Below, piece by piece: positions 2,934-23,098 of a stretch of 28,219 bases of DNA. Location of the stretch: positions 1 to 28,219 of IMG/VR virus record IMGVR_UViG_3300049845_000156; one strand, written 5' to 3'. Source of the stretch: a virus. Both the position numbers and the translations under genes were made by a program. The notes beneath the pieces are model-generated. The model saw only the letters and a list, made by a program, of their open reading frames with translations, was not told the origin of the DNA and did no database searches. Within the stretch, counting starts at the first letter, position 1, and each line of letters begins with the position of its first letter.

Positions 2934-2966
2934 GCATGATCGTCAGTGAAACTCCAAGGAACACAC

Positions 2967-4875: not shown

Positions 4876-5169
4876 ATGCAGTATGAATATGAGTGCCGCA
4901 AGTGTGGCGCGAGGTTTGACGCTATTGTGTCGATCAATGACCGGGACGGCCCGGTGGCCTGTCCTGACTGCGGCGCATCTGCAAAGCGTCTGATTTCCAT
5001 GCCGCATGTGTGCATGGGATCGTCAACGGATTGGTCGAACGAAAACAATGGCAAGGGCCGGCGCATCTCCCAGCTAGATCATGGGGTGCGCCAGCCATAC
5101 TATGCAAAGAATCAGCAGTCTGCGATTGATGAAGCGCATCGTCGCGGATTGCATGCCCATAAAGCATAA
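4876..5169 (+). CDS. FmdB-type zinc-ribbon protein
   Basis: A 97-aa protein opening with YEYECRKCGARFDA and then CPDCGASAKRL. This gives a Cys-x2-Cys ... Cys-x2-Cys zinc site at residues 7, 10, 29 and 32, the hallmark of the FmdB/CxxC putative regulatory family. The C-terminal half is polar and basic with no obvious fold. GAGGT lies 8 nt before the ATG. It sits between portal and scaffold, so a role in head assembly or late regulation is plausible, but the family function is not defined. Zinc binding is a confident reading; the role is not. Confidence 0.75.
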   Translation: MQYEYECRKCGARFDAIVSINDRDGPVACPDCGASAKRLISMPHVCMGSSTDWSNENNGKGRRISQLDHGVRQPYYAKNQQSAIDEAHRRGLHAHKA

Positions 5170-5253: not shown

Positions 5254-6282
5254 ATGCCCGACGAAGAGGATACCATTACCGCAGCCGAGCCGGATACTGG
5301 CGAGGTTCAGAGTGGCGCACCCGAGACGGCCGCCGCTGAACCGCCTGCCAATCCAGCAGAGCCGCAGGCGAATGGTGATGCGCCGGCTAACGCCGCACCG
5401 CAGAGCCAGGACGGATCTTTGCCAACCGATAGCCAGAATACCGAACAGCATCAACCGGAGAAACCGGCTGTTGATTGGGAAAAACGCTACCGTGACCAGC
5501 AGTCCTATATGGACCGGCAGGTCAACCAGTGGCGGCAACGCATGGAGCAGCAAGGGCAGCAGATGTCCGAGCTTTCCAAGTGGAAGCAAGAACAGGAACA
5601 GCGGGCGCAGCAGGCGCAGCTAAAGCCATGGTCTAAGGCGCATCCCGACAACAGCAAGTTCAACGGTTTGCTTGAGCGAGCCAAGGTCATCGAATCGCAG
5701 TTGCGCCGCATCCCGGCAACGCTGCCTCCTGAACAGCAGGAAGCGATGAAGCAGGCCATCATCGGTGCGCTTGACCCTGCTGAACAGCAGCAGATTCAGG
5801 AGTACCGGGAAAATCTTGCGAACTTCCAGCGAGATTTCTTCACCGACCCGCAGGGGACGCTCCTGCCCATGGTGGAGCAGTTGGCCGAGCGTAAAGTCCA
5901 GATGGCGCTCCAGAAGATCGAGGCGCAGCAGTCCGTCCAGAAGGACTTCACCGATCCCAAGCTGGGACCGATGGTCCAGCAGTACAAGGACGACTTCGCC
6001 AAGGCGCTGAATGACGGTGTTCCATACGACTACGCCAAGCACATGATGGGCATGTATGCCGAGCTTGAGGCGCTGCGCAATGAAAAGCGCACGCTTTCTG
6101 GCAAGGCTGCCCAGGCCGATGAGCAGCGTAGGCTGGCTAAAGGCGAGGCATCGCATACGCGTGATCCCCGTTCGCTCCCTCAAGACCCATACACCCTTGC
6201 GCTTGCCGACGCTAAAAAGCGCGGCGTGACGCCCGATTCCCCGAGGTTCGCTTCGATCCTCGCAAAATACGAAAGTAGATAA
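5254..6282 (+). CDS. Scaffolding protein
   Basis: A 342-aa protein with an acidic, Pro/Ala-rich, probably disordered N terminus (about residues 1-75). A long Gln-rich helical and coiled-coil middle follows (WRQRMEQQGQQMSEL, QQIQEYRENLANF), then a charged C-terminal region (about 290-342). Composition and position immediately before the capsid gene match phage scaffolding proteins, which line the procapsid and leave before maturation. AGGAG at 6-nt spacing supports the ATG. The basic C-terminal helix would be the expected capsid-binding part by analogy with other phages. Confidence 0.75.
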   Translation: MPDEEDTITAAEPDTGEVQSGAPETAAAEPPANPAEPQANGDAPANAAPQSQDGSLPTDSQNTEQHQPEKPAVDWEKRYRDQQSYMDRQVNQWRQRMEQQGQQMSELSKWKQEQEQRAQQAQLKPWSKAHPDNSKFNGLLERAKVIESQLRRIPATLPPEQQEAMKQAIIGALDPAEQQQIQEYRENLANFQRDFFTDPQGTLLPMVEQLAERKVQMALQKIEAQQSVQKDFTDPKLGPMVQQYKDDFAKALNDGVPYDYAKHMMGMYAELEALRNEKRTLSGKAAQADEQRRLAKGEASHTRDPRSLPQDPYTLALADAKKRGVTPDSPRFASILAKYESR

Positions 6283-6284
6283 CC

Positions 6285-7601
6285 ATGTCTGGTTCCCAGG
6301 ACCCCATCGCCACTACTACCCTTGCCAATGTCGCCCGTGGCGCGTGGGACGGTGTGAGTGAGCACAACCCCCTCTTCTCCGAGATGAAGAAGTCCGGCAC
6401 TATCGAGTACGATGTTGCCGGTGCTTCGGACGGCTCGACCCTCAACAGCACGACCTACGAACTGTCGGGCGCTGTCGAGGCCGGTCGCTTCCAGCCGACC
6501 ATTTCCGCCCCCGGTCAGGACATCTCCAGCCTGTTCACCTTCAAGAAGCGTCACCAGCGTTGGGTTGGCTCCTTCGGTGAGATTGTGAACGCGACCGCCT
6601 TTGATCGCGGTGCGCTGCGCCGGAACAAGAACAGCCAGATCGTTGATCTGAGCAAGACGGAAATCCCGGCGATGATCAAGGACACCATTACCGGCACCAA
6701 TGGCCTCCAGCATCAGGTGCTCCAGATGGTCCAGCCGGCCTATGCCGGCAACGGTCTGCCGCTCTATGGTCTGCCGAGCTTCCTGCCCGGCAACGGCTAC
6801 ACGGGTTCGGCTGCGTATAGCCTTGGTGCGGTTTCCAGCGGTGGCTCGGCTACGACCGGAACCGCCCTTGGTGACTTCGACATCGAAGGCTACACCCCGC
6901 CCACCGGGACCGGCAACGGCACCCTGAGCGGCGCTGTCCCGACCGCTGCGTTCAAGGAAGTGCAGGTTGCCGGGTCGAACACCTACCTTGGCCTGGCGCT
7001 CAAGCCTGGTCAGTTGGTGGTCGATGACGCCCAGTGGGATGCCTGGACGCCCACTCTGGTCAACACGGCCTCCAGCGCCTGGACCTCCACCGTTGACGAC
7101 GAGGACGATGCGATCGAGAAGTTCCTGTCGTACCTGATCTTCCGCCTGTCGCGCTTCTCCAGCACCGACAAGTCGAAGATCCCGAATGTGGGCCTGCTGG
7201 ACAAGACTTTCTTTGAGTACCTTGGTGCCAAGAAGTCGAGCCGCGAGACGATCTTCGTCACCCCGGATCAGAAGTCGCCCATGGTCCCCGACACCTCGTG
7301 GCCTGTCCACTTCATCTTCCATGCCGGCGTCCGCTGGTTCTGGGATGAGAACATGCCGTCGAGCACCGCCTATGCCTTCCCGGTCCAGCAGATGAAGCTG
7401 AAGGTGCAGCCTCTGTACCGCAACCTGGAGGACGGCAACCCGCTCAAGGTGAGCGGCGAGGATGCCGGTATCCTGGAGACGGAAATCACCCGTGATCCGA
7501 ACCGTCGCCAGTGGCTGGTGAGCTCGACCTTCCCTGGTCAGCTTATCTGCAACCCGCGCTACTTCGGGCGTGCCAGCCCGTACAGCACCGGAGCGGCCTG
7601 A
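6285..7601 (+). CDS. Major capsid protein
   Basis: This 438-aa protein directly follows the scaffold gene and is the size of a podovirus major head protein. It is rich in Gly, Ser and Thr, with few Cys and no membrane segment. It has a strongly optimised GC-rich codon use (37 of 60 G+C in 7381-7440), as expected for the most highly expressed virion gene. An HK97-type fold is expected from family knowledge but is not provable by eye. A strong hairpin follows the stop. A long antisense frame (6180-7322) is a codon-bias shadow. Confidence 0.8.
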   Translation: MSGSQDPIATTTLANVARGAWDGVSEHNPLFSEMKKSGTIEYDVAGASDGSTLNSTTYELSGAVEAGRFQPTISAPGQDISSLFTFKKRHQRWVGSFGEIVNATAFDRGALRRNKNSQIVDLSKTEIPAMIKDTITGTNGLQHQVLQMVQPAYAGNGLPLYGLPSFLPGNGYTGSAAYSLGAVSSGGSATTGTALGDFDIEGYTPPTGTGNGTLSGAVPTAAFKEVQVAGSNTYLGLALKPGQLVVDDAQWDAWTPTLVNTASSAWTSTVDDEDDAIEKFLSYLIFRLSRFSSTDKSKIPNVGLLDKTFFEYLGAKKSSRETIFVTPDQKSPMVPDTSWPVHFIFHAGVRWFWDENMPSSTAYAFPVQQMKLKVQPLYRNLEDGNPLKVSGEDAGILETEITRDPNRRQWLVSSTFPGQLICNPRYFGRASPYSTGAA

Positions 7602-7688: not shown

Positions 7689-8201
7689 ATGATTCACCAA
7701 CCCATTAAGGTCGGCACCGCCTCCGCGAATGCCGCCCACGCTGCCGATCTTGGCAAGCTGATCGTTTCTGACGGCAAGATGTACCTTGTGGTCAAGGCTG
7801 CCGCGACCATTGCGGAAGCCGCTTCCCGTGGCGTTGCCATTGGCAAGACCCTGGGCGTTCCGAACTGGACCGTCAACTTCCCCGCTGACGCAACTGGGCG
7901 CGACATTGGCCTGGTACCAGCAGGCCAGGTCGGCTCGACTGGAACGACCTCGCTGGTTTCCGGCGACTACTTCCTGCTTCAGATCAGCGGCCCCGGAACC
8001 GCCCTGTCCAACAGCACGCTGATCGCTTCGGCCACCCGCAATGGTCTGACGGTCAACAGCAAGGGCCTGTGGACGCCGATTGCCTCGACCTCTGAGGCTG
8101 CATCGGTGCTCACCTTTGCGGCCAATGAGTGCCGCTTCACCAACACTGCCGCCGTGGCTGTGTCGGCTGAAGTGACGGTCCAGCTTGCTGGGCTGATCTG
8201 A
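7689..8201 (+). CDS. Probable head decoration or capsid-associated protein
   Basis: A 170-aa protein preceded by GAAAGGAAACACAAC, a strong ribosome site. It is rich in Ala, Thr, Val and Gly with a beta-type pattern (KLIVSDGKMYLVVKAAATI, GDYFLLQISGPGTAL) and lacks Cys except one near the C terminus. Small beta-rich proteins encoded right after the major capsid gene are commonly head-stabilising or decoration proteins on the outside of the capsid. It lies between two hairpin regions, so it may be expressed at high level as its own short message. If capsid glycosylation occurs (see findings), this Thr/Ser-rich protein is a candidate acceptor. Confidence 0.55.
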   Translation: MIHQPIKVGTASANAAHAADLGKLIVSDGKMYLVVKAAATIAEAASRGVAIGKTLGVPNWTVNFPADATGRDIGLVPAGQVGSTGTTSLVSGDYFLLQISGPGTALSNSTLIASATRNGLTVNSKGLWTPIASTSEAASVLTFAANECRFTNTAAVAVSAEVTVQLAGLI

Positions 8202-8208
8202 TGTTGAC

Positions 8209-8234
8209 CGCTGCGGATTGTGACTACCGCAGCG
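8209..8234 (+). terminator. Perfect 8-bp stem-loop after the decoration gene
   Basis: CGCTGCGG and CCGCAGCG are exact inverted repeats around a 10-nt loop, beginning 7 nt after the stop. There is no T-run. It is the first of two adjacent hairpins, which suggests transcription attenuation or RNA processing. Confidence 0.45.
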
Positions 8235-8245
8235 ATCCTGGCCCG

Positions 8246-8279
8246 GACGCAACGCTATTCGCACGGGTAGTGTTGCGTC
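8246..8279 (+). terminator. 12-bp stem-loop upstream of the DUF115 gene
   Basis: Arms GACGCAACGCTA and TAGTGTTGCGTC pair over 12 positions with one G-U, around a 10-nt loop. No T-run follows. Together with the preceding stem-loop it separates the capsid and decoration genes from the putative glycosyltransferase gene, and probably lowers read-through. Confidence 0.5.
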
Positions 8280-8297
8280 TGTCGCCAGATTCTACGG

Positions 8298-8325
8298 TTG
8301 ACTTGTGCATATCACAGATTATGAG
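8298..8325 (+). promoter_or_regulatory. Candidate sigma70-type promoter for the DUF115 gene
   Basis: TTGACT (5 of 6 consensus) is followed after 16 nt by TATGAG (4 of 6), just downstream of the two hairpins. Transcription would begin near 8332, which fits an ATG start at 8343. The -10 match is moderate. Confidence 0.35.
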
Positions 8326-8342
8326 TGCTCCCGAGAACCTAC

Positions 8343-9476
8343 ATGCTGTGCAGCACTACGCCGGTTGCGACGGCTCTTGACACGCTGGAAGATCCTAACG
8401 CGGAGACAAACGAATCCTATTTCTTCGGATTCGGTGATGACGTTCTTGATGTTGCGTTAGGTATCGACGCTTACTGGAAGAATCGGTGGATCTTCGATCG
8501 CCCAATGCTTCCGACAGGCGTGTACGATGGAGATGTTGTTATCGTAGGAAGTGGGCCTAGCCTGGACGTAAACCTGGCTAGGCTCAAGTCTGTTCAGGAT
8601 TCCTGTCTTATCGTTGCTTCGCATAGCGCCATTCCACGATTGATGGCAGAAGGCATTATCCCGCATGTGATCTGCCCAAAGGAACGGCTACCTGATATCC
8701 AAAAGATACCGGAGCCACTGCCAGACTCAGTTATTTACGCTGGATTACCGCTTGTTCCGCATGCGCCGGTCATGTGCAAGCGTCAATATCTGGTTGGAGA
8801 CTGCGGGAAACTGAGCAAATGGCTGGGGATCTATAACGGAAGCATTGGCGTATGCCCGACTTCCGGCACCCTGGCGGCTTGGATTGGTGGCAGAATGAGT
8901 ACCGGTACCATATGGTTGTTAGGCCATGATATGACCATCGGCCATTATAGCGGGTTCAAGTTCCGAGAAGAGACAACCATTGGAGAGATTGAGTGCGTAG
9001 ACGGCATAAAGCGTCCGAGTACGCGAATCTATAGGGCATGCCAGGATAACCTGCGAGCATTGGCTACGGGGTGCCCGGTTGTCCAGACCGCGCCGCGTGG
9101 GGCACAGATCGAAGGTGCAGAACATGGGCCATTTGAACCTGATATTGGTCCAAAACCGGACCTTCCGTATGACGAAACGCCGGTCCATCGTCCATGCGTT
9201 TCTCGCATGGCTGCAATCCCTGAGATATGGCCCAAGGCACTAGCCGGCATAGAGCGCGCCAAGTCGCACGAGGACCTGACGGCAGGTGCTCTATTCGATC
9301 CAGAACACTTTGAACTGGGATGTTCGCTGTCGCAGACCATCTATTTGCAAGTCTCTATCCTGCGTCGGACGCTTCCGTTGACTGATGACCAGGCTTTTGC
9401 CATGCTGAAGGAAGCCATGAGCAATACCTACCGTGGCCTTTTGCCGTGGGCTAGGAGCATCCATGGACCTACCTAA
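8343..9476 (+). CDS. DUF115/Maf-like (MptE-like fold) putative glycosyltransferase
   Basis: A 377-aa protein with the signature of the DUF115 family (Maf flagellin-glycosylation proteins and archaeal MptE). The visible motifs are VVIVGSGPSLD at about 65-75, a Rossmann-like strand and loop; ICPKE at about 110; SGTLAAW at about 174-180; LLGHDM at about 192-197; and RGAQIEGAEH at about 252-261. In the family, Maf proteins transfer pseudaminic, legionaminic or related nonulosonic acids from CMP to protein Ser/Thr. It lies among capsid and tail genes, behind two hairpins and a possible promoter. A GTG at 8325 in frame is an alternative start. It could instead be a pterin-type pyrophosphokinase relative, but the neuBCA genes in the same genome favour sugar transfer. 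Confidence 0.65.
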   Translation: MLCSTTPVATALDTLEDPNAETNESYFFGFGDDVLDVALGIDAYWKNRWIFDRPMLPTGVYDGDVVIVGSGPSLDVNLARLKSVQDSCLIVASHSAIPRLMAEGIIPHVICPKERLPDIQKIPEPLPDSVIYAGLPLVPHAPVMCKRQYLVGDCGKLSKWLGIYNGSIGVCPTSGTLAAWIGGRMSTGTIWLLGHDMTIGHYSGFKFREETTIGEIECVDGIKRPSTRIYRACQDNLRALATGCPVVQTAPRGAQIEGAEHGPFEPDIGPKPDLPYDETPVHRPCVSRMAAIPEIWPKALAGIERAKSHEDLTAGALFDPEHFELGCSLSQTIYLQVSILRRTLPLTDDQAFAMLKEAMSNTYRGLLPWARSIHGPT

Positions 9477-9726
9477 AGAATTGTGGCCAACCTGGGGCGA
9501 TCACAAGAAAAACGCGCATACCTATGCTTTGTGCTGCATGGCGCATCGCTTCCGCAAGTTTGGATTTGAATCGTCGGTGAACATGCTGGATCCGCGCAGT
9601 ATGATCTACTTTTCCATGTGTGTCCATGAACCTATGGCATCGGCCTGCATAAAACACGCTATCGCTTGCGGTCCGTCGCTAAAGCGTATCATATATCCAA
9701 CCCATGAGCACGCCCTACTACCATAG
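9463..9726 (+). CDS. Small hypothetical protein (87 aa)
   Basis: I place the start at the ATG at 9463, which has AGGAG at 5-nt spacing, instead of an upstream in-frame start. It overlaps the DUF115 gene by 14 nt and the adaptor gene by 23 nt. The protein is rich in Cys, His and Met (HTYALCCMAHRF, YFSMCVHEPMASACIKHAIAC), unusual for its virion neighbours and suggestive of metal binding or a compact cytoplasmic helper. It is probably co-expressed with the DUF115 gene. I do not recognise the family. Confidence 0.5.
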   Translation: MDLPKELWPTWGDHKKNAHTYALCCMAHRFRKFGFESSVNMLDPRSMIYFSMCVHEPMASACIKHAIACGPSLKRIIYPTHEHALLP

Positions 9727-11191
9727 AGTTGATACGACTTTGCGTGATGCGATCATCGTGCAGAATGTGTCTGGAACCTTTGTCACCGGACTGACCAATG
9801 CAGATTTCACCAAGAAGTTGTCAAAGAACGGGACCGGGAATCAGTCAACCGCTGGGATCACCATTACTGAGGTTGATAGCACGAACAACCCAGGAGAATA
9901 TGAGGTTGAAGCGGCTGCGACATCGTTTGTTGCTGATGAGGGAACCTATACGCTGATGATCTACCGTACTGCTGCGCCGACGTATTCCTATGAGCAGGTT
10001 TATGTTGTGAACGCCACCGGAACCAGCGAGGCTACCCCAGCGAGCTTTACGGCAACCGCCAGCGATGGGCGTATCATTGACGGCACTGATCCGCTTGCGT
10101 CTGCAACGGTGTATATCACGGATGCCGGCAATTCGTTCATTACGCAGACTACGACCGGAGCCACTGGCTTGTGGGGACCCGTGTACCTGACTGATGGAAC
10201 CTATACGGTACGCGCACAGAAGAATGGGTACACGCAGGGGACTGGAACGATTACGGTTTCTGGATCAACCGTTACCGGTCCTGGCGCTGACATCACCTGC
10301 GCTGTTGGATCTACGACTGACTTCCGCTCTGCCGCACAGTTGTGGGCCTATGCCCGCCGGCAGGCTGTTGATCTGACCGGAACCAAGGCAGACGCCATCA
10401 TTAAGTCTGCCGTCAATGATGCGCTCGATATGCTGTCCAGCGAGCGTCAGTGGTCGCATCTGCTGCGGAAGTATTACATTCCGCTGAAGGGTGCGTACAG
10501 CACCGGAACGATTGCTGTTGCCACTGGCGGCACTGACGTTACTCTGACGACCGGGACTTGGCCTAGCTGGGCTGCCAGCGGCAAGATTTTCGTTGGCAAC
10601 CAGATTCTTGACGTTGCTACGCGCAGCAGCAATAGCGTTGTGACGCTGGCGCAGGCATACGATGCAACCGCTATCAGCGGTTCTACCTATGTGCTGTATC
10701 AGAATGAGTATGATCTTCCTGACGATATGTGGAAGTTCCACCGACCGCTCCCCGGTCAGCGTTGGGGATATGGCGGCAGCGCCAGGCCGATGCTGGAGCT
10801 TCTGGAAGCCGAGAACGGTGCCGCCTATGGGCAGCACTTCCCGAGCATGTTTGCCGTAGCCAACGGAAGCTTTGTCTGCTGGCCGTATCCTGACACCGAC
10901 TACATGCTGGGCTTTACCTACTTCGCCAGGCCGGCGCGTCTGTCCACGGACACGGATGTTGCCGACATTGACCCAGTGCATATCGAGTGCATGCGCCGCG
11001 CCATCGACTACCAGTTGGCCCGCCAGCTTGGCAAGGTTGTGGCGGGTGACGCCAATACGACCCTGGCTGCTTACAAGGAAGCCCTGTCGCGCATCGTCGA
11101 TAACGACAAGACGCCGATCGAGATTGATGCGGTTGGATCCGAGCCTATGGCCATGGGGCGCAAGGACATCTGGAAGCGGAGGACCGTCTAA
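9704..11191 (+). CDS. Head-tail adaptor with N-terminal Ig-like domains
   Basis: A 495-aa protein. Residues about 1-105 and 110-200 look like two beta-sandwich domains; the second (PLASATVYITDAG, GTYTVRAQKNGYTQGTG) resembles carboxypeptidase-regulatory or Ig-like folds that decorate many phage structural proteins. From about 205 on, helices (DAIIKSAVNDALDMLSSERQW) and a beta region (YDLPDDMWKFHRP) match the podovirus gp4-type adaptor pattern that bridges portal and tail hub. The gene lies just before the nozzle gene, the expected order, and ends in a TAATG overlap with it. The start has only a weak ribosome site. Confidence 0.6.
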   Translation: MSTPYYHRVDTTLRDAIIVQNVSGTFVTGLTNADFTKKLSKNGTGNQSTAGITITEVDSTNNPGEYEVEAAATSFVADEGTYTLMIYRTAAPTYSYEQVYVVNATGTSEATPASFTATASDGRIIDGTDPLASATVYITDAGNSFITQTTTGATGLWGPVYLTDGTYTVRAQKNGYTQGTGTITVSGSTVTGPGADITCAVGSTTDFRSAAQLWAYARRQAVDLTGTKADAIIKSAVNDALDMLSSERQWSHLLRKYYIPLKGAYSTGTIAVATGGTDVTLTTGTWPSWAASGKIFVGNQILDVATRSSNSVVTLAQAYDATAISGSTYVLYQNEYDLPDDMWKFHRPLPGQRWGYGGSARPMLELLEAENGAAYGQHFPSMFAVANGSFVCWPYPDTDYMLGFTYFARPARLSTDTDVADIDPVHIECMRRAIDYQLARQLGKVVAGDANTTLAAYKEALSRIVDNDKTPIEIDAVGSEPMAMGRKDIWKRRTV

Positions 11192-13170
11192 TGGCCTGGA
11201 ATGGCTACAGTGACCATGAAAGCGATATCGGAACCGGATGGTCCGAGATGGAAAACTGTTCATTCTACTACGCTGGTGAGTGCCGCCGTCGCCTTGGTTT
11301 TGGTGGCAAGGTTTCGTTGGGAAAGATCGGATGGTCAGGTGTAGAGCTTGGATCATATGCGCTGGTTGGTACAAGCGCAGGAGATATCCTGAGCGTTACG
11401 CAGTCAACATCTGCTGTAGCATCATTGGCTAGTGGTCTGACTGCAACTGCGTATCCAACGTTTGCCGTGATGAACGGTCGCGCGTACTATGCGAATGGGA
11501 CTGAGGTGCGTGTGTGTGACACCGGGGCGACGGCGGCGCGTACCGTTGGCATTGCAGCGCCAGCATCGGCTGCGACAGCATCAGGCACGAGTTCCGGCGG
11601 CGTTGTCGATGTAGGAGAACATCTAGTACGTTATCGTTATTACGATTCTTCCAGAAACCGCCTGTCCAATCCATCTACAGCAGCATCTGTTACCACAACC
11701 GCAGGGCAAAAGGTTGCAGTTGGTTACGCTGCATCTGCTGACTCAACGGTAAATTATATTATTATTGAAATGACTGCTGTAGGAGCATCAACGTATTACA
11801 GGGCGGCAACGATAGCAAATAGCGGAAGCAGTTATACGCTCGATATTTCTGACGACAATCTTATTGTTGGAGTTGCTGCGTCCAGAGATGGAGAATGGCA
11901 ACACGGGACTCCTCCTGCGTATGATATTATCTCAGAACACAGGCAGCGTCTATGGCTATGGGAAGCAAGCAATGGCGAACTTGCGTGGAGTCGCGCATTG
12001 TTCCCTGAGTCTTGGGATTCTGTAAATTACTCTCGGAAAATCACCCTTGACAACGGTGATACGCCTTCTGGATTGGCGTCATTCTATACTGATTTGTACC
12101 TTATTGGGCAACGCAGTATGCGGCGTCTTGTCTATACAAGCGATCCTTCTGCTGCTATGGTTGTAGATGTCCCAGGTAACTTTGGAGTATTTAACCAGCG
12201 TTGCCTCATAAAGATCGACGGTGGGATACTGCTTGGATGGGGTAAGAATGGCGCATGGATCATTGATGCCATGCAACCAAAGAAGATCAGCGCAAACATT
12301 GATGACACGCTTGCATCGCTGGCAAGCGCAACGACTACGGCACGTTTCGTGACTTACGAGCCAACCAGGCGCGAAGTGCTATTTTTCTTCCCGCTATCTG
12401 GAGAAACGTACTGTAAAGCTGCGTTTTGCTATAGCCTAGACACGAAGGAATGGACGCTTTACAAGTTCCGCCAACCTATTTCGTGTGCTGTCCTGAATAG
12501 CCAGTACACAGACCGTGAGCGGCTGATGATATGCGACAGCAATACCTATGGCTGGCGCATGGGTGTTTCCGCCAACGATGGCGGCGGCGATGGTGTTATT
12601 ACGGTATCCACCGGAAGCACGACAACGATCATCCAGGCCACGAATACGGCAGTTGTAGGTCAGACGCTCTACAATCCGACAACGACTGAGGAACGCCTTA
12701 TTACCGCATGCGATAGCAGCAGCATAACGGTCGGCGTTGCGTTTGCCGCTGCGCCGACTTCTGGGACCGTCATGTATGTTGGCAGCATACGGCAGAAACT
12801 TGTCACCGATTGGTGGCCTGGACAGTCCATGGTTGCCAAGAAACGCCCGACAAAGTTCCAGATCGCTGTCCGGTCAGAGGGTGACATGGGCACCGGAACC
12901 GTATCGTATTATCAGGACTTTAGCGGGACCGCTGTATCTGCAACCTCGTTTGCTTCAGACGCTTTCCCGGAAGGCGTGAGTATTTCTAGTGGTGCCATTA
13001 CAGTTAATTTCGACACTGGTGCGGCAGATGGCTATGTGTCTGTCCCAATGCCAGCCGACTGGAAGCGTGTTATTGCAACGCAGATCATCATTGAAACCCC
13101 GTATGATGGTGTGAGGCTTGTTGAGGCCGCGATTAAGGACGACAGCACGATGCAGGAGGATGGTGAATAA
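11191..13170 (+). CDS. Tail hub/nozzle protein (P22 gp10 / T7 gp12-like)
   Basis: A 659-aa, almost entirely beta-rich protein. GGAGG lies 8 nt before the ATG, and the start is in TAATG overlap with the adaptor stop. The N terminus (CSFYYAGECRRRLGF) and the middle region (SEHRQRLWLWEASNGELAWSR, LYLIGQRSMRRLVYTSDPSA, GGILLGWGKNGAWIIDA) match the pattern of podovirus nozzle proteins with a beta-propeller platform. In the family these form the hexameric tail tube below the adaptor and hold the fibres or spikes. The size agrees with gp10-like and gp12-like nozzles. Assignment is by pattern and gene order. Confidence 0.65.
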   Translation: MAWNGYSDHESDIGTGWSEMENCSFYYAGECRRRLGFGGKVSLGKIGWSGVELGSYALVGTSAGDILSVTQSTSAVASLASGLTATAYPTFAVMNGRAYYANGTEVRVCDTGATAARTVGIAAPASAATASGTSSGGVVDVGEHLVRYRYYDSSRNRLSNPSTAASVTTTAGQKVAVGYAASADSTVNYIIIEMTAVGASTYYRAATIANSGSSYTLDISDDNLIVGVAASRDGEWQHGTPPAYDIISEHRQRLWLWEASNGELAWSRALFPESWDSVNYSRKITLDNGDTPSGLASFYTDLYLIGQRSMRRLVYTSDPSAAMVVDVPGNFGVFNQRCLIKIDGGILLGWGKNGAWIIDAMQPKKISANIDDTLASLASATTTARFVTYEPTRREVLFFFPLSGETYCKAAFCYSLDTKEWTLYKFRQPISCAVLNSQYTDRERLMICDSNTYGWRMGVSANDGGGDGVITVSTGSTTTIIQATNTAVVGQTLYNPTTTEERLITACDSSSITVGVAFAAAPTSGTVMYVGSIRQKLVTDWWPGQSMVAKKRPTKFQIAVRSEGDMGTGTVSYYQDFSGTAVSATSFASDAFPEGVSISSGAITVNFDTGAADGYVSVPMPADWKRVIATQIIIETPYDGVRLVEAAIKDDSTMQEDGE

Positions 13171-13793
13171 TGCCTATTTCCAGCAACGCCCCATTTAATG
13201 AGTTCGGGATGTCGATGGTACTGCGCGACATCGAACAACTCTGGTTATCTCTTAATGCGCCAGATACAGACGCCAATTCAACAACCGGGAATATTTCCAG
13301 CGGCCCCGGAGAAGGGCAGACGCAAAACGATAATAATGGAGTGTCGCAGAGTAGCGGAGAAACACCAGAGGTTACTGGTGGCGGCGGCGCAGCAGAAGGC
13401 AATATCCTGCTGACCGTTGACAGTGCCAACACTACAAACGCAGCGTCACTTGTTCTAACTGGCACATTCTACGGACAAAGCTGGACTTTCTATGAAAAGC
13501 GTCCGAGGTTTAACGCAAAGTGGGTGAATAGTGTTGAAATAACCACATCTGGATCAGCGTGTTCTGTTATTGGCAGATCCGCAAGTACCACAGGCGCAGT
13601 TGCAGATATTGTAGCAAGTGATGGGACAATTTTATGTAGAAGTCAAGGAACTAGCACGGTTGCATTTAGCAATAATCCAGTAGTTGTTAGAGACTCGCAA
13701 AATCTATCTGTTTGCATGATTGCATCATTTACTACAGATACCACCGCGCCAACAAGAGCCGCCACAAAGGGCGAATTATACTGTATCTATTGA
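13170..13793 (+). CDS. Hypothetical tail-associated structural protein
   Basis: A 207-aa protein in TAATG overlap with the nozzle gene and preceded by GGAGG. The N terminus (NEFGMSMVLRDIEQLWLSL) is probably a short attachment helix. A disordered Gly/Ser/Asn linker covers about residues 32-78, and a beta-rich C-terminal domain follows. The layout of attachment helix, linker and beta domain suits a tail appendage or fibre adaptor. Base composition becomes AT-rich in the C-terminal half, continuous with the next gene, so the two probably move as a host-range unit. Confidence 0.5.
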   Translation: MPISSNAPFNEFGMSMVLRDIEQLWLSLNAPDTDANSTTGNISSGPGEGQTQNDNNGVSQSSGETPEVTGGGGAAEGNILLTVDSANTTNAASLVLTGTFYGQSWTFYEKRPRFNAKWVNSVEITTSGSACSVIGRSASTTGAVADIVASDGTILCRSQGTSTVAFSNNPVVVRDSQNLSVCMIASFTTDTTAPTRAATKGELYCIY

Positions 13794-13794
13794 T

Positions 13795-14844
13795 ATGCCA
13801 GATACATACATTCACGATGGGTCATCTTGGAGAAGGTCTAGGGAGCTATATCTTCCTATTTACCCAGGTGGAGGGTATCAACAGTGGGTAAAGGCTAAAA
13901 AACTCTATTGCCACGACGGATCATCTTGGAGACTTGTTTTTGATGGGAAAAAAAGGATTTATGCGTGTGGGCCTTCTGGGCTATCGCAGGTAAATCGAGA
14001 CAATGGCGCATTCACGCTTATAGACAGTTCTATAACAGGTCTTAAATACGGTAGATATCTTAATGACGAGTTCTTCGTATCTGATGGCCAATATGTTTAT
14101 AGGCGAACAGGCGGATCATGGCAACAGTTGTCTGGCATAACATCAATCGCTGGGTCCATCAAGAAACTAGAAGTCTATAATGGGGAATTATATGTAACAA
14201 ACAATAGAATCACAGCAAATGGCGGCGGCATATATGTTATGGACGGATCATATTCATTTTCCGTTGATTATTCCATTAGCTATCCTAATAGTCTTGCTGT
14301 TGGTAACGGTCTGTTGTATTGTTCATTGGATGTTGGTGGAAATGTGTATGGATACAACGGGACAGCATGGGGTGTTGTTGGAACTGCTGGTTCAACAACA
14401 AAGACAATCATAACATCAGGGAATAATGATGGAACGTTTTTTACAATGGGTAATGACAACTATTTTTACGGACCCGGAATACATAACCGTATAAGGACAA
14501 GCCCATACATAGACTCATGGGCAGCATATCTTGTTTCTTTTTTTGGAGGATATAATGAAGCAATAGGATTATGTTATCATGGCAATGCTATTTATGCTGC
14601 GTATGTGTACTACGGATCAGGGGGCGGAGCACCGTATGGTGTTTTGCGTTGTACAGATACATACATTCCAACTGTTACATCTTGGTCTGTTAATTATCCA
14701 TATATGTGTACATCGGTTGATAATTGCCTGCTAATATCACAGAACGGGTCAACCGTTTTCAGAAATGAATATGAATATCAATGGACAGTAACAGACACGA
14801 ATACATATTACGATGCCTTTGCGTCAGATTTTGACTTCACATAA
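13795..14844 (+). CDS. Beta-propeller-like tail spike or receptor-binding protein
   Basis: This 349-aa protein starts at the ATG one base after the preceding stop; the frame is open further upstream but that overlaps the previous gene. It opens with a duplicated HDGSSWR module (about residues 7-13 and 40-46) of the kind seen at tail-fibre tips. About five repeated beta units with Gly-Tyr-Val patterns follow (GQYVYRRTGGSW, GGGIYVMDGS, NVYGYNGTAW), resembling a propeller. Base composition is strikingly AT-rich (20 of 60 G+C in 14401-14460) against GC-rich neighbours. Host recognition is the likely role; no enzymatic motif is seen. Confidence 0.55.
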   Translation: MPDTYIHDGSSWRRSRELYLPIYPGGGYQQWVKAKKLYCHDGSSWRLVFDGKKRIYACGPSGLSQVNRDNGAFTLIDSSITGLKYGRYLNDEFFVSDGQYVYRRTGGSWQQLSGITSIAGSIKKLEVYNGELYVTNNRITANGGGIYVMDGSYSFSVDYSISYPNSLAVGNGLLYCSLDVGGNVYGYNGTAWGVVGTAGSTTKTIITSGNNDGTFFTMGNDNYFYGPGIHNRIRTSPYIDSWAAYLVSFFGGYNEAIGLCYHGNAIYAAYVYYGSGGGAPYGVLRCTDTYIPTVTSWSVNYPYMCTSVDNCLLISQNGSTVFRNEYEYQWTVTDTNTYYDAFASDFDFT

Positions 14845-17723: not shown

Positions 17724-20360
17724 ATGCCTGACCCGTTCGCACCAGAAGGCGTCCTCCCCAATCTCCTGCGCTGGATGGACCGTCCAGGGCAGGCGGTCCG
17801 CAATGTATTGCGTGGCGATCCCATGGCGGCAGCCCGCCAGGTTGCAGACTTTGTTGTTGAGCCGCTTGACGCTGCGCTGCCCGGCGACTGGGTACCTGAC
17901 ATTGCACGCCGTGAGGACTATGTTAGCGGATCAGAACTTGCCGGTATTAAGACGCCTATCGCATCAACAGCAGCAGACATTGGGATTGGAGTCCTTACTG
18001 ACCCACTAACATACCTGTCCTTCGGTGCGCTGCCTGCCGCAAAGGCGGCGGCGACCGGAATGAAGTATGGAGTGACGGCAGGAATCCCGTTCACAGGGGG
18101 CAAGGCTTCCGTGATGCTCGGGAAAGGCTCTCTTACGCCCGTAGACCCACTTTCCCGCCTCATGGGCGGTGCTGATATGGGTCTGACTGCCGTGGCCGGC
18201 AAATTGGACGAAATGAAGGCTGGCGGCACCCAGGCTGGGCAGGCCATTGGACCCGTGACCAGGGGGTATGAGGACCTGAAGGCTGGCATCCGCCGGGCCA
18301 CGGGTTCAGAAAAACTCTCTCCGACGATCCAGAAGCAGATCCAGGAAGGCGTGGCGCTTGGTAATGCTTCCGCCAAGGTCAGTCGCGTCAAAGCCGAGGC
18401 GGCTATGATAGGGTTGGATAAAGAGGAGCGGGTGTTGTTGACGCTCGCCAATCGTGGCATTGACATTGGCGACCTAAAACCAACCAAGGCAAGCCGCGCA
18501 ACCGTCACAGGATCAACCGACTTTCAAGAGAATGTTGGGCTACTGGCAAGGAAATACGGTAAAGACGAAGCGAAGCTAAAGGCGAGGGCGCAGGCCATTT
18601 CAGAGCTTGGCGGGCTGCAAATGTCTGAGGCAAAAGCTGCCCAGGCCATGGACAAGAACGCTGGCATTGCCGATTATCTCAAAACGCAATGGTTGTTTGA
18701 TTCAGACACGAATTCTCTCAAAGGGAGGACGCTCAAAACTCCAGAGGCGTTTGCAAAGTTCTTGAATGAAGAAGGTGTAGGAATCGAGCTTGATTCTGCA
18801 AAACTGCTACTGGACCGCGCCAATAGCCAGGGGAGCATGATAACCAAGGCGCATATTGCCAAAATGTTTGCGCCAGCCAATGAAGCGGCGCTTAACCAGG
18901 GGCTTGCCGACGCTGCCAAGGCTGCCATTGCGGAGACGCCAGGATTGCACCGCGATGAGGTGCGCGCCCTGACGGACCTGTTGAACGGCATGCCTGCCCG
19001 TGGCGGCGTGTTCAATGTCCTGGCAAAGATGACCAAGCCGGTAAAGGGCGCGATGGTCTATGGTGTTGTGCTTCCAAAGATCGGATCGCTTGTGCGCAAT
19101 AAGATCGGTATGGGCATGCAGGCAGCCGCTACGCCAGGTGTGCGTGAACAGGCATTTACGCATCTCAATCCGTACAATATCCTGATGGACATTGGCAAAG
19201 CTGCCGATGAAGCGTATGGAATGGCCCTATTCGGTAAGTCCGATGAGATTAGCCGGGATATCATAAAGATTGAGGAAGCCTATAAAAAGGCTAGGTCTGG
19301 GAAGGAAGTCGAAAAGATCCTACGCGACGGTGGAGATGCCATGCTGGCAGATGCCGTGAAGCACGGCGTCATGGATGGGTTTGTTTCTACTGAGGAAATC
19401 CTGTCAAAGATAGACAAGGACCCCAAGTGGGCGAAGTTTTGGGACATCTATAACGCGCCTGGCAAGATGTTCTCGTATATCGAGCAACGCGGGCGACTCC
19501 AGACCTTCAAGAACCTGCACCCGTCCATGGGTGGAGCAGAGGCTGGGCGCAAGACCAAGGAAGCACTCTACGACTACACGGTAAATAGCCCAGAGAACCG
19601 CAATCTGCGCGATGTCATCCCGTTTGCTCAGTTCATGGTCAAGTCCATCCCGCAGCAGGCGAAATGGCTGAGTGAAAAGCCGGCTGTTGGCGCAGCTATG
19701 GCCCCGTTGTTCTACGATGCCAGTGGCGATGAACCACCCGTGTACCCGTGGATGCAGGGCAAGTCCCGTGTGTCGCTAGGTACTGATGCTACCGGGAATC
19801 CTTTGTTTGCCACTGGGTTCGGACTCCCCATGGAGAGTATTGATGTCCTGCCAAATCTATCGGGTAGCCTGCAAAGTGCTGGGCGTGACCTCAGCCAAGG
19901 AATGCTGGCCTCCACTGCCCCGGTGCTTAAGACGGCGGCGGCGATCACGACCGGGAAAGATCCATACTTCGGAACACCGTTCGGAACCTACGGGAAACTC
20001 CCGATCATAGGCGAGGCTGGCGGGCTTGGACGCGCCATAAATGTCATCGGGGGGACGGGATTCCTTGAACCTCTTGGCTTTAACCTGATCCGTCAGGCTA
20101 ACCAAGCTACCGACGAAACCAAGACCGGTATTGCCCGCACCGTGGACTTAGCTACCGGTGCTAAACTCATCTCTGTAGATCCGAACATTGCCGAACAACG
20201 GGCCATTACCTCCTACTTGGAGCAGCGGCCAGATATTCAGCAGTACCGCACCTTCTATTCGCGTGAGCCTGACGCCGAGTTCTCGGAACTTATGACGCAG
20301 TTGCAGCAGGCTAAGGCGCGGGCGAAGGCTGCACGGGAAGCTGCCGCGCAGGCGCAGTAA
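17724..20360 (+). CDS. Large internal virion / DNA ejection protein
   Basis: An 878-aa protein and the last gene of the rightward module. It has a membrane-active-looking N-terminal part (ADIGIGVLTDPLTYLSFGAL at about residues 87-106). Long helical regions occupy the middle, and a Lys/Ala/Gln-rich coiled C terminus follows (TQLQQAKARAKAAREAAAQ). Size and place match the largest ejection proteins of podoviruses, which form a channel across the cell envelope. I see no lysozyme or transglycosylase motif. The last 50 nt overlap the 3' end of neuA on the other strand. Confidence 0.6.
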   Translation: MPDPFAPEGVLPNLLRWMDRPGQAVRNVLRGDPMAAARQVADFVVEPLDAALPGDWVPDIARREDYVSGSELAGIKTPIASTAADIGIGVLTDPLTYLSFGALPAAKAAATGMKYGVTAGIPFTGGKASVMLGKGSLTPVDPLSRLMGGADMGLTAVAGKLDEMKAGGTQAGQAIGPVTRGYEDLKAGIRRATGSEKLSPTIQKQIQEGVALGNASAKVSRVKAEAAMIGLDKEERVLLTLANRGIDIGDLKPTKASRATVTGSTDFQENVGLLARKYGKDEAKLKARAQAISELGGLQMSEAKAAQAMDKNAGIADYLKTQWLFDSDTNSLKGRTLKTPEAFAKFLNEEGVGIELDSAKLLLDRANSQGSMITKAHIAKMFAPANEAALNQGLADAAKAAIAETPGLHRDEVRALTDLLNGMPARGGVFNVLAKMTKPVKGAMVYGVVLPKIGSLVRNKIGMGMQAAATPGVREQAFTHLNPYNILMDIGKAADEAYGMALFGKSDEISRDIIKIEEAYKKARSGKEVEKILRDGGDAMLADAVKHGVMDGFVSTEEILSKIDKDPKWAKFWDIYNAPGKMFSYIEQRGRLQTFKNLHPSMGGAEAGRKTKEALYDYTVNSPENRNLRDVIPFAQFMVKSIPQQAKWLSEKPAVGAAMAPLFYDASGDEPPVYPWMQGKSRVSLGTDATGNPLFATGFGLPMESIDVLPNLSGSLQSAGRDLSQGMLASTAPVLKTAAAITTGKDPYFGTPFGTYGKLPIIGEAGGLGRAINVIGGTGFLEPLGFNLIRQANQATDETKTGIARTVDLATGAKLISVDPNIAEQRAITSYLEQRPDIQQYRTFYSREPDAEFSELMTQLQQAKARAKAAREAAAQAQ

Positions 20361-20997
20361 GCAATGCGTTCGCAACCATAAGATCAAACTCATCGTTAAT
20401 ATCCAGGGCCTCCATCTTGCTGATGGGGATCCCGATCACATTGCCGTATCCCGTGATCTTCCGAGACATCCACAAGGATTCTGAGCGGGTCAAATAGCAG
20501 GCAGAGTTTTCTTCCCAAAGCGGCTGCCGCTCCTGCTGCCGGCGCGGTGCGTTAGGATCCAGCCGTTGCATAATGCCATTGTTATCCCGCCACAGATCGC
20601 CCCTGTAGTCCGTCACCGTCATAATGCAATGGGCTTCCTCTGGACGCTTTGCATCTATCACCTTGCGGATGGTTGCAGCCGTCCGTAGCGGACTGGTAGG
20701 AGGAAGGCAGAGCGTCCACGGGTTAAGGCCCAGTTCATCCAGAGCATGGATCAATACCGATTCAGTAGTTGCATCATCCGCCGCCAGCGACAGCGGACGC
20801 CACACGACCTTAGACCCGTAGGACATGGCAACATCTGCGATTTCCTCGTCCTCGGTGGACACATATGGGTCGCATCCAGCCTCTAGTGCCGCCTTAATGG
20901 TCCAGGCAATCAGCGGGATTCCACCGCACATGGCTATGTTTTTACGCGGGACACGCTGGCTTCCGCCACGCGCAGGGATGATGCAGAGAGGGTTCAT
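20311..20997 (-). CDS. neuA: CMP-nonulosonic acid (CMP-sialic acid type) cytidylyltransferase, NeuA-like
   Basis: The enzyme joins a nonulosonic acid such as Neu5Ac to CMP using CTP. The 228-aa protein has the complete cytidylyltransferase signature: IPARGGSQRVPRKN (7-20) for CTP binding, TSPLRT (101-106), ENSACYLT (about 163-170) and the metal-binding ALDINDEFD (197-205). This first motif is of the type also seen in pseudaminic and legionaminic homologues (PseF, LegF), so the exact sugar is open. It starts in TAATG overlap with neuC. The last ~17 residues (after ANALL) extend past the usual core end and lie in the overlap with the convergent 878-aa gene. Confidence 0.88.
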   Translation of the reverse strand: MNPLCIIPARGGSQRVPRKNIAMCGGIPLIAWTIKAALEAGCDPYVSTEDEEIADVAMSYGSKVVWRPLSLAADDATTESVLIHALDELGLNPWTLCLPPTSPLRTAATIRKVIDAKRPEEAHCIMTVTDYRGDLWRDNNGIMQRLDPNAPRRQQERQPLWEENSACYLTRSESLWMSRKITGYGNVIGIPISKMEALDINDEFDLMVANALLTAPARQLPVQPSPAP

Positions 20998-22070
20998 TAG
21001 TAGGGCATCCTCTTGTGCAGCAGTGATTCGTTGATTTCCGTATTCATCAGAGCGTCAACAATACGAGGTGCGCTCATGCCGTCGCCATATGGGTTGTCCT
21101 TCACGCGTGGCATAGATTGTGCCTGGTGAATACCGGCAACGATACGGTCAGGCTGGAAAAGAGCAATGTCGATGACATTTTTGCCCCTAATTCTGTCCTG
21201 CTGCCTGTCTCCGATGTTCACCGCAGGAGTCCCATAGCTGGGTGCCTCTAGCAGACCACTACTGCTGTTCCCAACAATGGCAACAGCATGCTCCAGCAGT
21301 TGCAGGTATTGGCTACGCGGCATATTCTGGTATGCTAGCGGGACGCCTTGCAGACCGTCAAGAACCCCGCGCCAGCCGGGATCATTGTTGGGCAGGATCC
21401 ATACCGACTTCATACCGACCTTCTGAACAGCCTCCTTGACAGCCTCAACCTGCGCCCGTGTCTCTCCGGGGCGGTTTGTGGTCGGATGCATGACACACAG
21501 CAAATACGGCTCAACAATAGGCCGGTCGGAACCATGAGGCAGATCGTCAAGCTGCGGCGCTCCAGTCCTGTGGATACGCCACAGATCCTCGCCAAGTTCC
21601 ATCAGACGGGAAAACGCATCGTCATTAGCGGCAAAATGCAGATGCGCCAGCTTAGCAATCGCCATCCTGGCCGTACCGTCTATATTTCCGCTTCGTTCCC
21701 CAGCCTGTATATGGGCCGTAGGAATATAGGAATACGCACCGGCAATGGCCCCCATCAACTGTTCGCCACGGTCGCCAGCCAGCACCAACCAATCAGGCTT
21801 TACATGATTGAGCGTGAGAGCAAAGTCCTCTAGGAACCCTCCAAGGCTGCCGGCATGAGCGCAATTCGTATCATGCGGGGCCATGCCTACCACATGGTCA
21901 ACCTCAAACCCATCTTCCTTGATGTACCTGGCCGTCGATCCATGCGACACAGACAGGTGCATGTTGGTCGCGCAGATGCGGCACTCAATACCACGCGCCT
22001 TGGCGTTGGCTATAACCGGGCGAATATAGCCCCATTCTCCCCTAGATCCGGTAAGAAACATCAGACGCAC
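20997..22070 (-). CDS. neuC: Hydrolysing UDP-HexNAc 2-epimerase, NeuC-like
   Basis: The family hydrolyses UDP-GlcNAc (or UDP-diNAcBac in LegG) with inversion at C2 to give ManNAc or a relative, the substrate of NeuB. I choose the GTG at 22070 because GGAGG sits 7 nt before it; this gives 357 aa and a 10-nt overlap with neuB. The longer open frame upstream lies inside neuB. Motifs are TGSRGEWG (7-14), GDRGE (99-103), AHIQAGE (119-125), NID (129-131), GNSSSGLLEAPSYG (267-280), NIGDRQQDR (285-293) and NPYGDG (326-331). The usual HIHGGE is HIQAGE here, a small departure from the NeuC pattern. Confidence 0.85.
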   Translation of the reverse strand: MRLMFLTGSRGEWGYIRPVIANAKARGIECRICATNMHLSVSHGSTARYIKEDGFEVDHVVGMAPHDTNCAHAGSLGGFLEDFALTLNHVKPDWLVLAGDRGEQLMGAIAGAYSYIPTAHIQAGERSGNIDGTARMAIAKLAHLHFAANDDAFSRLMELGEDLWRIHRTGAPQLDDLPHGSDRPIVEPYLLCVMHPTTNRPGETRAQVEAVKEAVQKVGMKSVWILPNNDPGWRGVLDGLQGVPLAYQNMPRSQYLQLLEHAVAIVGNSSSGLLEAPSYGTPAVNIGDRQQDRIRGKNVIDIALFQPDRIVAGIHQAQSMPRVKDNPYGDGMSAPRIVDALMNTEINESLLHKRMPY

Positions 22071-23098
22071 GGGATATCCTCCACATCTTCCACGCGAAGC
22101 TGGGTGTTTGCCTTTACATGATGCACGACCTTGCGCCCCAGATACAACGGCATCTCCCGAGACAGGATCCCATTGCCAGGCCGCTTGCTCCACAGGTTGC
22201 CCTCGGAAAGCACATCCCCAGGATGCAAGTCCTTGGTCACAACCAGTGACCTATATGCCCAGTTGCGGATGGGGCGCTCCATATCCTGCAACCGCTTATC
22301 GTCTCCCATGGCCATACCGTTGATATGCAGCGCATGGCACAAGTCGCCAAGTTCGGCAAAGGTGATCGAAACATCCCGGTCCGGGCCTTCAATGGCCGGG
22401 TGCAGCGTCACATGCTTTTCGATTATGGTTGCCCCAAGCGCATGTGCAGCGATGGCTGGGTAGATGTAGGGTGCGTGGCATGAGTAGCCGATAACGCAGC
22501 GGAACCGCTCTGCCATGCGCTCAACGACCGCAATATTCAGATCGCCAGCCCGTGGCGGATACTCGCTCAGGCAATGGCACAGGGCGAACGACCTAAACCG
22601 TGAGTCGAGATATTCATACAGAGTCTCTACTTCCGGCCAATCGCACATGCCTGTTGATACGATGACCGGCTTCCCGATCTTCGCCAGACGGTCAAGGAAC
22701 GGATAGTCCTGAGCCTCGCCAGATCCGACCTTGAACACAGGAACCAGCGGCTCAATCTCCTGCGCCGCCTTCCATGAAAAAGGCGTACACAGGTAGGTGA
22801 TTCCCTCAAAATCGCAATGCTCCTTCAGCTTGCGATGCTGCTCCAGCGTGAGGGCATGCTTCTTGAGCCAATCATACAGAGGCTCAGACATATTGTCCGA
22901 CATCGGAGTCCCTGGCAACATCTCTTCATCCGGCAGATGATGCTGGAACTTTACTGCGTCCGCCCCGGCGTTAGCTGCTGCTGTAGCCATAGCGCAGGCC
23001 ATGTCTAGGTTGCCCATATGCGCGTCGGCGCACTCAGCAATGACGTATGCCTTAGCGTCAATGCTGCTGACGCTTTGCGATCCGATGTAGAAGTTCAT
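22061..23098 (-). CDS. neuB: N-acetylneuraminate-type synthase, NeuB-like
   Basis: The enzyme condenses ManNAc (or a related hexose) with phosphoenolpyruvate to form a nine-carbon sialic-type acid. This 345-aa protein has the full NeuB length and both domains. The TIM-barrel part carries VIAE (19-22), KFQ (50-52), CTPF (104-107), KVGSGE (123-128), VSTGM (147-151), the metal-site histidines H208 and H229 (EKH) and EGPDRD (237-242). The C-terminal SAF (antifreeze-like) domain spans about 282-345 with R283 and RPGNG (306-310). GYSDHT of the family is GYSCHA here. AAGGA at 5-nt spacing supports the ATG. The frame continues upstream in a Cys-rich stretch (see findings). Confidence 0.9.
   Translation of the reverse strand: MNFYIGSQSVSSIDAKAYVIAECADAHMGNLDMACAMATAAANAGADAVKFQHHLPDEEMLPGTPMSDNMSEPLYDWLKKHALTLEQHRKLKEHCDFEGITYLCTPFSWKAAQEIEPLVPVFKVGSGEAQDYPFLDRLAKIGKPVIVSTGMCDWPEVETLYEYLDSRFRSFALCHCLSEYPPRAGDLNIAVVERMAERFRCVIGYSCHAPYIYPAIAAHALGATIIEKHVTLHPAIEGPDRDVSITFAELGDLCHALHINGMAMGDDKRLQDMERPIRNWAYRSLVVTKDLHPGDVLSEGNLWSKRPGNGILSREMPLYLGRKVVHHVKANTQLRVEDVEDIPCV

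Follow-up and report, generated by a model that had tools for sequence, protein, structure and literature searches.

The DNA analysed here, called the window, is the complete 28,219-base IMG/VR viral record IMGVR_UViG_3300049845_000156, a linear fragment. Its minus strand carries three nonulosonate (sialic-type sugar) genes in the order neuB (22061–23098), neuC (20997–22070) and neuA (20311–20997), and its plus strand carries, within the capsid gene cassette, a gene for a 383-amino acid PF01973 protein (8325–9476) related to the Maf flagellin glycosyltransferases. The virus may use these four genes to decorate its own particle, a proposal backed by several unrelated phages that pair the same genes.

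The neuBCA set and its phage surroundings

The neuB frame starts with ATG at 23098, with AAGGA just 5' of it, and stops at 22061; neuC starts with GTG at 22070 and stops at 20997; neuA starts with ATG at 20997 and stops at 20311. Reading frames, starts, stops and family assignments confirm the coordinates and full-length frames given in the original prediction, which was made from the letters alone, as well as the overlaps it described, 10 nt between neuB and neuC and 1 nt (TAATG) between neuC and neuA.

The set lies downstream of an operon of exonuclease, SSB-like, DUF3310-like and metallophosphoesterase genes, and the gap at 23.1 kb that separates it from these phage genes, which are on the same strand, is a short intergenic one. 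At its other end, neuA overlaps tail to tail with a convergent phage gene (17724–20360) over 50 bp (20311–20360), which places neuA inside phage DNA. The GC content is flat over the three genes, and their codon usage correlates equally well with that of the virion genes and that of the other minus-strand genes (r = 0.89 each). Because of the overlap, the flat GC content, the matching codon usage and the adjoining same-strand operon, the neuBCA set is phage-borne, as had been claimed when it was said not to be host flanking DNA, and neither chance nor chimera is a serious explanation. A chimeric assembly of host and phage DNA would accord with the usual occurrence of NeuBCA as host genes and with the failure to find a close viral or bacterial relative (NeuC is at most ~40% identical to any of the matches listed). 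It is nevertheless highly improbable and was rejected, given the overlap with a phage gene and the codon and GC match, together with the occurrence of neu genes in several independent phages. A phage–host join at 20.3 or 23.1 kb had been named as what would overturn the original claim; the evidence at both ends speaks against one.

The three nonulosonate enzymes

NeuB (345 amino acids) is a nonulosonate (N-acetylneuraminate-type) synthase by its match to PF03102 (2e-62), its C-terminal SAF domain (1e-8) and its best PDB match, meningococcal NeuB (1xuu, 2e-52). Residues E22, K50, Q52, K123, S126, E128, H208, H229, D240 and R306 align with the 1xuu active site and include the metal-binding histidine pair, noted earlier along with the SAF domain, and the residues for phosphoenolpyruvate (PEP) and N-acetylmannosamine (ManNAc). 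Since NeuB falls below the cut-off of the TIGR03569 equivalog, which is specific for N-acetylneuraminic acid (Neu5Ac) synthases (262 versus 399.65 bits), it is classed as a NeuB-family nonulosonate synthase, an assignment that does not fix the sugar. Neu and legionaminate (Leg) synthases have a glycine, and pseudaminate (Pse) synthases a phenylalanine, after the KIGS/KIAS motif (PMC7371886). Gly127 of the window protein is the Neu/Leg form rather than the Pse phenylalanine and argues against pseudaminic acid as the product. A serine at position 184 of the meningococcal enzyme is atypical for both the Neu and the Leg sets (PMC7371886); the corresponding residue here is Ser178, and serine occupies this position in 23 of 63 aligned homologues. 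With Gly127 speaking against pseudaminic acid, yet the serine at 184 atypical, Neu5Ac is favoured as the product but not proven. The earlier view that the product could not be read from sequence is refined to this extent.

NeuC (357 amino acids) is a hydrolysing UDP-N-acetylglucosamine (UDP-GlcNAc) 2-epimerase. It matches PF02350 (2e-60), exceeds the equivalog cut-off of TIGR03568, the NCBIfam model for NeuC (291 versus 236 bits), and has its best PDB matches in 5xvs/5zlr and in human GNE (4zht), to which alignment shows the catalytic D/E/D/H/R residues to be retained. The family motifs reported for this protein are therefore real, and the catalytic sites of both NeuB and NeuC look intact. The NeuC tree requires at least four changes between viral and bacterial hosts.

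NeuA (228 amino acids) belongs to the CMP-nonulosonate cytidylyltransferase family (CMP, cytidine monophosphate; PF02348, 9e-19), and its closest NCBIfam model is PseF, below whose cut-off it scores (121 versus 206). The nucleotide-binding residues are retained, and R10, K19, N20, R67 and D199 are present. Compared with the meningococcal enzyme, however, Asp211 is replaced by Asn201, Gln104 by Pro99 and Arg165 by Gln154, and the first two of these positions are important ones. In the N. meningitidis CMP-Neu5Ac synthetase, substitution of the second Mg-binding aspartate (D211A) lowered kcat ~15,000-fold, and substitution of the sugar-contacting glutamine (Q104A) raised the Km for Neu5Ac ~40-fold (PMC2901514). 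Asparagine at 211 occurs in four of 72 aligned homologues, the window NeuA and the full-length homologues L112, L116 and L168; proline at 104 occurs in the window NeuA only. NeuA is thus the weak link of the set. The original prediction described a complete, coupled set with visible active-site motifs throughout. Its phage-borne, full-length and translationally coupled character stands, as do the active sites of NeuB and NeuC, but completeness is likely rather than read off the sequence, because NeuA has lost a metal and a sugar position. The statement that the three steps need no further input beyond UDP-GlcNAc overlooked PEP and CTP from the host.

A Maf-like protein in the capsid cassette

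The earlier account of the sugar pathway rightly named the three neu genes but omitted the plus-strand gene at 8325–9476, which is flanked by a gene of the size expected for a decoration protein and by the gene for an SU10-type adaptor. Its product matches PF01973 (MptE-like / Maf_flag10 / DUF115; 1e-14, 55 bits against a cut-off of 34.6), the domain at the centre of Maf flagellin glycosyltransferases, and is a probable CMP-nonulosonate glycosyltransferase by Pfam, structure model and synteny. An AlphaFold model based on 44 relatives is confident in parts of the core, at about residues 70–120 and 220–270. Foldseek placed the Maf structure 5mu5 at the top (E = 4e-9, probability 1.0), followed by archaeal MptE (8sd5 second), with human ST8SiaIII a weak match further down (E = 4e-3). 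The whole-protein TM-score to 5mu5 is low (0.42), as is expected because model confidence is low outside the core. In Foldseek the alignment with Maf extends over 350 columns, whereas the MptE entries are about 215 residues long. The window protein runs beyond the PF01973 domain into an extension modelled at low confidence. Helices that might correspond to the helical C-terminal domain of Maf are predicted for residues 285–379, also at low confidence. Small open frames flank the gene on both sides (8201–8380 and 9433–9726).

In E. coli, the C. botulinum Maf protein transfers Neu5Ac from CMP-Neu5Ac to serine or threonine residues of flagellin; the PF01973 domain is similar to the sialyltransferase Cst-II (PMC11339370). 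The presence of a gene of this transferase family therefore gives the neu pathway a plausible purpose, and its product is the probable consumer of the sugar. No PF00777 (GT29) domain was found in the window record.

Nonulosonate and transferase genes in other phages

Similar combinations are present in uncultivated phages of other lineages. Podovirus G054, which shares homologues of the tail nozzle (3e-7) and the internal virion protein (9e-10) with the window, carries neuA, neuC, a full-length 651-amino acid Maf gene and neuB in one run, ~2 kb after the internal virion protein gene. The siphovirus-like contig L204 has capsid, Maf, neuA and neuB genes near each other, and in G010 PF01973 genes adjoin the capsid and tail genes, and neuA-like and neuB genes lie in between. 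Records L197 and L199 encode a PF02719 (Polysacc_synt_2) dehydratase, a DegT aminotransferase, an acetyltransferase-like protein and a NeuB-family protein, a combination that resembles a pseudaminic-type pathway; L197 also has a full-length Maf gene, including PF20157, shortly upstream of the terminase gene.

In G001 and G002 a GT29 sialyltransferase-like gene directly follows the capsid gene and is accompanied by glycosyltransferases, neuB and neuC, in G001 also by a neuA-like gene. The T4-like phages G005 and G009 and their relatives G003 and G004 have neuB, neuC, neuA and GT29 genes in a single run, and in G006 neuC and neuB lie upstream of a capsid gene, after which come two glycosyltransferases. 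Among 49 other viral NeuB records searched, PF01973 was found in 24 and PF00777 in seven. Conversely, NeuB was found in five of 20 PF01973 phage records chosen regardless of NeuB, compared with a few hundred NeuB contigs among 2.9 million overall; both scans were limited by the patterns used, and this is a rough contrast rather than a test. The large marine NeuB contigs L025–L082 were not counted as strong evidence, since few of them showed a terminase.

The GT29 family, a eukaryote-type sialyltransferase family, was seen in none of 14 control genomes. Phage GT29 proteins encoded at 4575–5234 of L189, 6746–7405 of L186 and 7489–8016 of L194 lie close to neuB/neuC, and to neuA in the T4-like phages. 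An uncultured 484-kb phage (LR756508.1; region 322868–326042) has a NeuB relative and five GT29-like places, one of them less than 3 kb from NeuB.

The virion gene block and the podovirus slot

The virion genes run along the plus strand; a terminase gene is missing from the fragment. The portal gene (2946–4820) matches the portal family phrog_12082 (3.5e-6), to which the L211 portal also belongs. It is followed by a small Cys-rich, zinc-ribbon-like gene (4876–5169), recognised by eye and collinear with similar small genes in L236 and L237, and by a probable scaffold gene (5254–6282), assigned from position and composition. The probable major capsid gene (6285–7601) was assigned from position and a weak hhalign match to the L211/L216 capsid proteins (probability 45%, E = 2e-4). 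The next gene (7689–8201) encodes a probable 170-residue decoration protein, by position and size, and its L211 counterpart matches a PHROG virion structural family; it is a candidate acceptor, although serine and threonine content singles out no acceptor protein. After the PF01973 gene come the SU10-type head–tail adaptor (9704–11191; PF24175, 3e-9) and a tail nozzle-like protein (11191–13170), the homologue of which in G054 is at L222 10057–11868. The gene that neuA overlaps encodes an 878-residue internal virion/ejection-type protein, with its G054 homologue at L201 1797–5366. In the tail module, a 374-residue gene (13720–14844) has a GC content of 0.405 against about 0.56 and codon usage unlike the rest; it probably encodes a receptor-binding or tail protein that was gained recently. 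A PADLOC scan found no defence family.

The original prediction had recommended a search for other phages with the same synteny. Scans with an alignment of PF01973 proteins retrieved podovirus records (L211–L214, L216 and L231–L237) with the order portal, scaffold, capsid, decoration, PF01973, adaptor and nozzle, which the window matches, its portal belonging to the same PHROG. L231, L232 and L235 duplicate other records of the analysis, and capsid or decoration genes of L233 and L237 were unrecognised by similarity. By the 52–76% identity of their PF01973 proteins to that of L216, these records represent at least four other podovirus lineages in which the decoration–PF01973–adaptor slot recurs. 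Their PF01973 proteins are about 15–20% identical to the window protein. Those of L211 (9845–11215) and its kin have an additional C-terminal methyltransferase domain, which the window protein does not have, and L236 and L237 have one further gene between PF01973 and the adaptor.

Proposed function and alternatives

The genes, their families, residues and synteny and the fold of the PF01973 model point to a phage-encoded nonulosonate pathway that supplies a Maf-type glycosylation whose target is most likely the virion, a reading to which we give an even chance of being right. If all four enzymes are active, NeuC, presumably made together with the replication proteins, would convert host UDP-GlcNAc to ManNAc; from this and PEP, NeuB would form Neu5Ac or a closely related acid by condensation, and NeuA would activate the product with CTP. 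The cytoplasmic Maf-like protein, presumably made with the capsid proteins, would then transfer the sugar from CMP to a serine, threonine or other acceptor on a freshly synthesised virion protein; the likeliest target is the capsid or the decoration protein encoded next to it. The phage could benefit through a shield of charge, through concealment from defence or in adsorption.

Several observations weigh against this proposal, beginning with the NeuA replacements. The N-terminal Maf domain PF20157, present in the Maf protein of L197, is absent from the window protein, where only PF01973 was found, and we therefore call the protein Maf-like rather than a typical Maf. It is only 10–23% identical to the others aligned, and its family also includes the MptE pterin kinases. 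The PF01973 and neu genes lie 11 kb apart on opposite strands. The capsid model, built from four sequences, has a pLDDT of 29, and the capsid assignment is correspondingly weak. Finally, NeuB is absent from the records of the slot podoviruses L211–L214, L216, L233, L234, L236 and L237; the slot is therefore not tied to a phage-made nonulosonate, and the donor in those phages would be host-derived or something else.

It is somewhat unlikely, in our estimate, that the pathway has decayed or makes another nonulosonate, with NeuA inactive or activating a sugar other than Neu5Ac, such as a legionaminic-type acid or a product of host-modified ManNAc; this explanation overlaps with the others. The D211N and Q104P changes, the proximity of NeuA to a PseF model whose cut-off it does not reach, the NeuB score below the Neu5Ac-synthase cut-off and the serine at position 184 would all fit it, but the three frames are open and coupled, Asn211 recurs in full-length homologues, NeuC passes its own cut-off, and legionaminate or pseudaminate pathway genes were not seen in the window. 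Less probable is a role of the sugar on the host, in which host transferases, or the phage PF01973 protein acting on flagellin, would alter lipopolysaccharide, capsule or flagellin and bring about superinfection exclusion, receptor masking or cell shielding. NeuBCA enzymes usually supply surface glycans, flagellins are the acceptors known for Maf (PMC11339370), and the neu operon accompanies replication genes on the strand opposite the virion genes. However, the sole transferase-family gene found in the window stands in the capsid cassette, in a slot conserved in other podoviruses, unrelated phages have transferase-like genes next to those for capsid or tail, and the window, itself a fragment, showed no membrane-bound transferase, flippase or polymerase. 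We also doubt, to a slightly greater degree, that PF01973 and neuBCA are unrelated, the former being an old part of the capsid cassette that uses a different donor or has a different function, such as pterin or nucleotide chemistry, and the latter a separate metabolic set. The opposite strands, the slot relatives without neuB in their records, the extra methyltransferase domain in the one such PF01973 protein tested, and the second rank of the MptE structure in Foldseek agree with this. The co-occurrence of NeuB and PF01973 far above what their rarity in viral records would lead one to expect, the single gene run with both in the distantly related G054, and the length of the Maf alignment relative to MptE, with its extension modelled at low confidence, argue for a common role.

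Beyond the window, we tentatively propose, with somewhat less than even confidence, that self-contained sialylation systems arose independently in several unrelated phage lineages through the combination of CMP-nonulosonate genes with a Maf (PF01973) or GT29 transferase gene, often in the virion block, and that these phages would coat their particles with sialic-type sugars inside the bacterial cell.

Relation to known systems and significance

The window set shares its enzymes, chemistry, NeuB and NeuC catalytic residues and coupling with the bacterial neuBCA/nab clusters of N. meningitidis, C. jejuni and Moritella and, for the epimerase, with human GNE. It differs in being carried by a phage, together with virion and replication genes, in Asn201 and Pro99 of NeuA, and in its long branch, no close bacterial donor having been found among the matches listed. 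The PF01973 protein shares its domain and best fold match with the Maf flagellin glycosyltransferases (5mu5 of Magnetospirillum; C. botulinum CbMaf), the usual partners of which are nonulosonate genes, as here. It is shorter, however (383 versus about 630–670 residues), without the N-terminal Maf domain, and encoded within the capsid cassette of a phage. In mycobacteriophages, capsids and tail tubes are described as glycosylated by phage-coded transferases (Freeman 2023, cited in PMC12619734). The idea is the same, but that description mentions neither a Maf-type transferase nor a phage-made nonulosonate, whereas the window phage would make the activated sugar too. Similar in content are the uncultivated phages described above (G054, L204, G010, G001/G002 and the T4-like G003, G004, G005 and G009), which combine NeuB with NeuC and/or NeuA and with PF01973 or GT29; they represent other lineages with other transferase families, and in several the neu genes directly adjoin the transferase gene.

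Close relatives were not found in the collections searched. PHROG gave no match for NeuB or NeuA and a single distant family of unknown function for NeuC. In tblastn searches of 50,697 deposited phages no relatives of the portal, capsid, internal virion or PF01973 proteins were found, and the L211 PF01973 protein matched there through its methyltransferase part only. The strongest NeuB/NeuC match among the deposited phages proved to be a Moritella capsule contig, not a phage, and was discarded. Single-protein scans of IMG/VR with NeuB, PF01973 and capsid, and a scan with a portal alignment, found no close kin. MptE-like proteins are already annotated in uncultured Caudovirales (BFVD). No description of phage neuBCA with Maf, or of phage GT29, was found in the literature searched, which lay outside subscription journals and preprints. 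As far as the searchable literature goes, the parts have been seen before but not joined into a function.

As judged from sequence, the window may hold a phage glycosylation system in which the phage makes the nonulosonate donor itself and a Maf-like protein is the transferase. If so, bacterial viruses would produce activated nonulosonic acid of their own and attach it to their particles in a way akin to flagellin glycosylation, which suggests that a charged layer of sugar shields the particle. The MptE-like proteins annotated in uncultivated phages would gain a clear role, the part played by PF01973 in phage capsid cassettes would become directly testable, and such phages would be a source of small soluble enzymes for protein sialylation.

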